In this document: positions 9,034 to 51,755 of the stretch, piece by piece
How positions within the stretch are numbered: position 1 is the stretch's first letter
Layout: the number at the start of each line of letters is the position of its first letter
From: Candidatus Nanoarchaeia archaeon
GTDB lineage: Archaea; Nanobdellota; Nanobdellia; Woesearchaeales; JANQNE01
Direction: 5' to 3'
NCBI GenBank assembly: GCA_028279725.1
Contig: JANQNE010000010.1
Span: forward strand, 124,001 to 188,000
DNA length: 64,000 bases
Made by a program: the position numbers and the translations under genes
Notes under the pieces: model-generated
What the model saw: only the letters and a program-made list of their open reading frames with translations
Database searches by the model: none
What the model was told of the DNA's origin: nothing

Positions 9034-9122
9034 ATATCACCAAGCGTAGCGATTGGTGAGCATTACCAGTAAAAATAAATCTGACGAAAGAAAAAATATA
9101 AGAAGCAAGCAGAGCGTGATAT
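9034..9122. repeat. Dispersed intergenic element, copy A
   Basis: An 89-nt element with terminal complementary arms ATATCAC (9034-9040) and GTGATAT (9116-9122). Just inside the left arm is CAAGCGTAG; about 37 nt later comes AAATCTGAC; near the right arm is GCAGAGC. Copies at 22266-22363 and 51661-51755 share the inner motifs at nearly the same spacing, while their arm sequences differ but remain complementary. A second hairpin, TCACCAA/TTGGTGA, is specific to this copy. Orientation and function are unknown. Confidence 0.55.
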
Positions 9123-9128
9123 AAAATA

Positions 9129-9253
9129 TGGGGACACTGGGATTCGAACCCAGATCCGCTGGTTTAGCCTGTTGTAAGTCATCGCTCAATTTCTCAAGCT
9201 CTTCGCTCCAACATCTGGAGCCAGCTATTCTAGCCAGGTTATACTATGTCCCC
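9129..9253 (-). tRNA. tRNA-Trp (CCA) with a 51-nt intron
   Basis: The acceptor stem GGGGACA/TGTCCCC, T arm CTGGG-TTCGAAT-CCCAG and anticodon stem GCTGG/CCAGC all pair; the anticodon loop reads CTCCAGA, giving CCA (Trp). The loop is interrupted after position 37 by an intron (about 9164-9214), the canonical archaeal site. Intron ends pair as TGTTG/CAACA, leaving 7-nt segments on both sides as in a bulge-helix-bulge, although the central helix is weak. Exons are 39 and 35 nt. The 3' CCA is not encoded; the discriminator is A. Confidence 0.92.
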
Positions 9254-22265: not shown

Positions 22266-22363
22266 ATGTGTACGGTGCCAAGCGTAGTCTTCAATGAAAC
22301 ATTTTGATCAAATAAATCTGACTCACTTTCATGAAAGAAGCAGACGAAGCACACCATACACAT
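22266..22363. repeat. Dispersed intergenic element, copy B
   Basis: 98 nt with terminal arms ATGTGTACGGTG (22266-22277) and CACCATACACAT (22352-22363), complementary except for one G-T pair. Inner motifs CCAAGCGTAG, AATAAATCTGAC and GACGAAGC match copies A and C in order and spacing. It lies in the divergent gap between the DRG GTPase and the MscS-like channel, upstream of both. Confidence 0.6.
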
Positions 22364-51660: not shown

Positions 51661-51755
51661 AAACATAACACCAGGCGAAGTTTTCTAAAGAACCACTTTA
51701 ATAAGATAAATCTGTTTCTCCAACAATAAAACATCTGACGAAGCGTGTTATGTTT
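51661..51755. repeat. Dispersed intergenic element, copy C
   Basis: 95 nt with perfect 11-bp terminal arms AAACATAACAC (51661-51671) and GTGTTATGTTT (51745-51755). Inner motifs CAGGCGAAG, GATAAATCTG and CTGACGAAGC match copies A and B with the same spacing. It lies between the convergent lrp and DUF523 genes. Confidence 0.6.

Follow-up and report, generated by a model that had tools for sequence, protein, structure and literature searches.

Palindromic repeats with a conserved folded core, probably MITE-like mobile DNA, in Nanobdellota

The window analysed here, a stretch of 64,000 nucleotides from a Candidatus Nanoarchaeia archaeon, contains three intergenic elements of about 95 nt whose outer arms differ completely in sequence. 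An original prediction, made from the letters alone, took them for copies of a dispersed family in which each arm pairs with its own partner, and offered either a structured RNA or a small mobile or regulatory DNA element as their identity. Which of these are they, and what keeps their arms paired? A direct reading of the sequence and the matches of a covariance model (R1) place all three copies where the prediction had put them, on the + strand:

51661..51755, + strand: copy 1, outer arms AAACATAACAC / GTGTTATGTTT, pairing perfect; core CAG-GC-GAA-GT ... AC-GAA-GC, loop with AAATCTG; 96.7 bits with R1, 81.3 bits with R2
22266..22363, + strand: copy 2, outer arms ATGTGTACGGTG / CACCATACACAT, one C·A mismatch; core CAA-GC-GTA-GT ... 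AC-GAA-GC, loop with AAATCTG; 85.1 bits with R1, 74.8 bits with R2
9034..9122, + strand: copy 3, outer arms ATATCAC / GTGATAT, pairing perfect; core CAA-GC-GTA-GC ... GC-AGA-GC, loop with AAATCTG; 61.1 bits with R1, 50.9 bits with R2

The predicted pairing of each arm with its own partner was thus exact for copies 1 and 3, but not for copy 2, with its single mismatch. The core of copy 3 shows an inner compensatory change, from T-A to C-G. A gap of 6 nt separates this copy from the 3′ end of a - strand tRNA gene (window 9129-9253; Rfam, 43.2 bits), which was missed by ARAGORN. The anticodon region of this tRNA is CCA, tRNA-Trp-like, and since it spans 125 nt it probably contains an intron.

Model R1 was built from nine copies, the three in the window and six from elsewhere in the host genome that were found by DNA similarity. 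With filters off, it recovered exactly the three copies from the whole window (61-97 bits), the next match having E=1.5. In the host genome (G000, a DPANN archaeon, 1.42 Mb) it matched 40 copies, all at E<=5e-6, an earlier R1 search of the genome having given 39 at E<=5.1e-5. As nine of the 40 were used in building the model, 31 were new to it, and the dispersed family that had been proposed is confirmed. The copies are spaced irregularly, about 2 to 100 kb apart; they are intergenic, many directly abutting a stop codon, and have no ORF within their ~95 nt. Two host copies are ~150 nt long (L062:1501-1648 and L063:1496-1650, on contigs C8 and C1 respectively), with outer stem and core intact and ~50 nt extra within the loop. 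The outer arms of most host copies are CATARCAC/GTGYTATG; those in the window seem unrelated because these copies are divergent.

Each copy is a long imperfect palindrome with a conserved structure. From the outside inward, this consists of a variable outer stem, a 3-nt 5′ bulge (CNA), GC/GC, a symmetric GNA/GNA internal loop, a GTY/RAC helix of two to four pairs and a terminal loop of ~55 nt. The loop contains AAATCTG or GAATCTG in 35 of the 40 host copies, and AACTCGG or AAATCGG in other genomes. GNA is found on both sides in 108 of 134 distinct copies, and a GA/GA form in 11 more. One T-A pair in the aligned arms is nearly constant (94%). Covariation in the outer stem is overwhelming. Among the 40 host copies, 110 cells had changed on both sides with pairing kept (vs. 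35.6 in shuffled alignments), a count equalled by none of 500 shuffles. In 67 diverse copies from many genomes, there were 296 such cells (vs. 94.5 shuffled), 91.2% of cells were paired (96.5% in the outer helix) and the covariation score was 0.664 (vs. 0.201 shuffled), collapsing to 0.03-0.08 when partners were slid out of register. The selected terminal stem of the original prediction is therefore strongly supported by both-sides-changed pairs far above shuffles, and the outcome it had named against itself, no further copies and no covariation, is contradicted on both counts. Interpreting the core as a kink-turn, box C/D or bulge-helix-bulge motif was rejected on inspection, as the geometry and box motifs do not fit. 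A GCGNAGC mini-hairpin on each side, instead of a cross-strand GNA/GNA loop, was also rejected, since T-A/C-G and C-G/T-A changes are coordinated between the two strands.

The family is strictly polar in the host. Orientation was uniform within each of the nine contigs that carry copies (- on C1, C4, C7, C9 and C11; + on C2, C3, C6 and C8), an arrangement expected by chance about once in 2^31. When copy flanks were pooled by contig, GC skew was negative on the element strand in nine of nine contigs. Skew was uniformly negative across the window and negative overall in 14 of 17 independent 20-kb stretches; in the three non-negative stretches, >90% of the coding lies on a single strand. When third codon positions were measured separately for each gene strand, the element strand was C-rich at these positions in nearly every case. 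The skew thus reflects replication asymmetry and not gene direction. The element strand is always the C-rich replication strand in the host, with 40/40 copies concordant. The leading strand is usually G-rich and, if this rule applies here, the GNA strand would be the leading-strand template. Flanking genes, scored in element orientation, gave a mixed tally in the host (++ 16, -- 11, -+ 8, +- 5), and the orientation of the element is therefore independent of transcription. No such polarity was seen among the copies of a related genome, G007, and orientations were mixed on single contigs in other carriers. The predicted energies of the two strands as folded DNA did not differ significantly. This strict replication polarity in the host is the most unusual feature of the family.

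The family is mobile in relatives. In G007, perfect 8-bp duplications were found at 11 of 29 copies (vs. a shuffled mean of 0.54 and maximum of 3), in most cases a constant 4 nt away from the stem, with the outer stem serving as a 15-bp terminal inverted repeat (GTAYGTGCATAGCAC). GGAGCGAT likewise borders a compound copy in L051. Copies of a second subfamily (GCCATTGCTGC...) sit within those of the first or within their terminal repeat, and this combination of the two recurs at several sites. At two loci in G007 (L066:18841-18938 and L072:1527-1623), second-subfamily hairpins lie within first-subfamily copies, just past the 5′ core GNA triplet, and look as if they grow by stem addition at one point. 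In G307, the core lies inside a ~262-bp MITE with GGCTCTGTCCYRAA ends and 9-bp duplications. Within this element lies a pair of inverted core modules; the broader model R2 also matches the second. Elements of G307 and G304 with GGCTCTGTCC-type ends have perfect 9-bp duplications in 12 of 18 cases. In G304, G332 and G334, one or two modules lie within another terminal repeat (CAGTCAAGTTAAG-like). One core is therefore found within unrelated transposon ends.

Two further arrangements were observed in relatives. G304 has a separate MITE of 163-165 bp with GGCTCTGTCCTAAAT ends (L277, L280 and L281), flanked by 9-bp duplications in L280 and L281, whose inner hairpin is not matched by the core model; these ends may carry a structured module of another kind. 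At L208 and L218 of G262, another CCCAGCGCAGT / CCTAGCGCAGT motif comes after the core module, suggesting that modules are chained in tandem.

In the host itself, 7-bp matches flank 7 of 40 copies (vs. 1.25 shuffled), a weak signal but above chance, as would be expected for old copies. The copies in the window are old insertions whose target duplications have mostly decayed.

With R2, at least 29 of 353 genomes of the order proved to carry the family, a lower bound because no more than 11 candidates were scored per genome. Carriers are spread over many families, interspersed with non-carriers. Pattern matches in bacteria seem to be due to chance, scoring 21 bits or less on the model vs. up to 79 bits for Nanoarchaeota loci, and viral contigs gave no match to the strict pattern. 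Literature searches for such repeats in DPANN archaea gave nothing on this hairpin family.

What moves these elements? Solo ends were examined for an autonomous element and no transposase lay between them. Y1_Tnp (PF01797) was absent from G000, G007, G262, G307 and other carriers, and DDE_Tnp_1, DDE_Tnp_IS240 and DDE_Tnp_IS1595 from G000, G007 and G307; the carrier assemblies are fragmented, and a transposase gene may be missing from them. Because neither the four transposase families nor the solo ends revealed one, we infer a mover from the duplications only.

Strong covariation, together with internal-loop and loop nucleotides conserved across many genomes, is the usual signature of a structured RNA, and would fit a non-coding family of paralogous small RNAs or UTR elements with a folded core bound by protein or ligand. 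RNA helices usually accept G·U much more readily than A·C, however, and the one-sided mismatches of the outer stem, in the 103 copies amenable to automatic parsing, were 14 G·T and 13 A·C. With these two classes about equal, the outer stem is without an RNA signature. The orientation of the element also tracks the replication strand rather than gene direction, Rfam matched nothing in the whole window except a tRNA, copy number jumps among genomes and copies bear target duplications. The family behaves as DNA, not RNA, and we consider an RNA family improbable; of the identities first offered, the small mobile DNA element is supported and the structured RNA is not. Mutation alone might also produce paired arms, if template switching (quasi-palindrome correction) copied one arm onto the other with no structural selection. 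Two-sided changes do greatly outnumber one-sided intermediates, and the equal G·T and A·C counts betray no thermodynamic filter, both as this mechanism would have it. Correction would nevertheless remove both the 3-nt bulge and the GNA/GNA loop; the large majority of distinct copies counted above retain them, and template switching cannot account for this conservation. As a full explanation it has little to recommend it, but it may act on top of mobility and add to the covariation of the outer stem.

The polarity invites two other readings. Polar hairpins could have been domesticated as a chromosomal signal for replication, recombination or segregation, with a layout like that of KOPS or Chi. 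The complete concordance with the replication strand over nine contigs and the structure retained in old copies are in favour of this. Known polar motifs, however, are short sequences and not covarying hairpins, the polarity is confined to G000, with G007 non-polar and other carriers mixed on single contigs, no copy was detected in the majority of the order's genomes and the spacing is irregular; we regard a selected signal as unlikely. Alternatively, the copies could be REP/BIME-type repeats moved by a single-strand Y1 (RAYT-like) transposase. Target duplications of 8 and 9 bp, such as those present here, are unexpected from Y1 transposition, the IS200/IS605 family is not known to make target duplications, and the main carriers lack Y1_Tnp. 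Hairpins and inverted pairs are present, on the other hand, and the strand polarity is of the sort known for IS200/IS605 single-strand transposition (PMC5371812), with which the family also shares hairpin-forming ends; replication-linked orientation bias is likewise known for Tn7 and other insertion sequences (PMC5371812). REP/BIME sequences (PMC3733652, PMC12306157) resemble our family in being dispersed intergenic hairpins, sometimes in inverted pairs, but the present elements are longer and have no GTAG/CGTC tag at the hairpin foot. On balance, a Y1-type origin is very unlikely.

Integron attC sites provide a further comparison. They are recognised as folded single-stranded DNA (PMC2727003; archaeal integrons, PMC9668308) and, like the present elements, keep structure more than sequence and have bulges and unpaired spacers. 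However, our family is scattered over the chromosome and not in cassette arrays, and has target duplications. Its aligned arms have no constant AAC/GTT triplet corresponding to the attC boxes RYYYAAC / GTTRRRY, and the outer stem thus lacks constant R-box triplets; an attC identity was rejected for want of constant boxes.

The closest likeness is to MITEs (reviewed in PMC10969869), which are short, gene-less, multi-copy, hairpin-forming elements with terminal inverted repeats in AT-rich intergenic sites, and with direct repeats of 7-10 bp, found here in relatives. The hairpin family satisfies this description except for a known parent. It differs from MITEs in having a covarying folded core common to elements with unrelated ends, in that no parent insertion sequence was found, and in its strict polarity in the host. 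Our preferred explanation, which we consider probable, is that the copies belong to a high-copy, non-autonomous mobile DNA family of MITE-like palindromic repeats in Nanobdellota, moved in trans and with its core under selection. This is supported by the 8-bp (G007) and 9-bp (G307) duplications, terminal inverted repeats, nested and compound copies, the patchy distribution and the lack of any gene. The putative transposase acting in trans would make a staggered target cut. Selection would act on the folded core, presented either as a cruciform or as single-stranded DNA during replication, when folding is likely to occur, and this core might help to join the two ends or provide a recognition site for a protein. 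In the host, insertion or retention would depend on replication-strand orientation, and the one-way polarity could then come from an insertion bias or from loss of the opposite orientation. Several observations count against the MITE-like reading: a plain MITE has no obvious need to conserve a folded core beneath several ends that are unrelated, no autonomous parent was found, duplications in the host are weak, the polarity is seen in G000 only and not in G007, and the folded strands are equal in predicted DNA stability.

The original prediction had overlooked the conserved bulge, the GNA/GNA core, the replication polarity and the MITE context, and the novelty of the family lies in the recurrent structured core and the polarity. 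We tentatively propose, as a possibility short of an even chance, that the core is a self-folding DNA module common to, or hitch-hiking in, unrelated small DPANN transposons, and that a factor reading folded DNA at the replication fork would lead to strictly strand-polar insertion or retention in some hosts.

Covariation is usually read as a mark of structured RNA; in this family it belongs to a DNA element, and wobble statistics, target duplications and replication polarity are the tests that separate the two. The 40/40 polarity can be used to mark the direction of replication in an uncultured genome, and allows replication-coupled insertion in archaea to be tested directly. Should several unrelated transposon ends be served by a single folded core, a structure-reading DNA factor would be implied in DPANN archaea.
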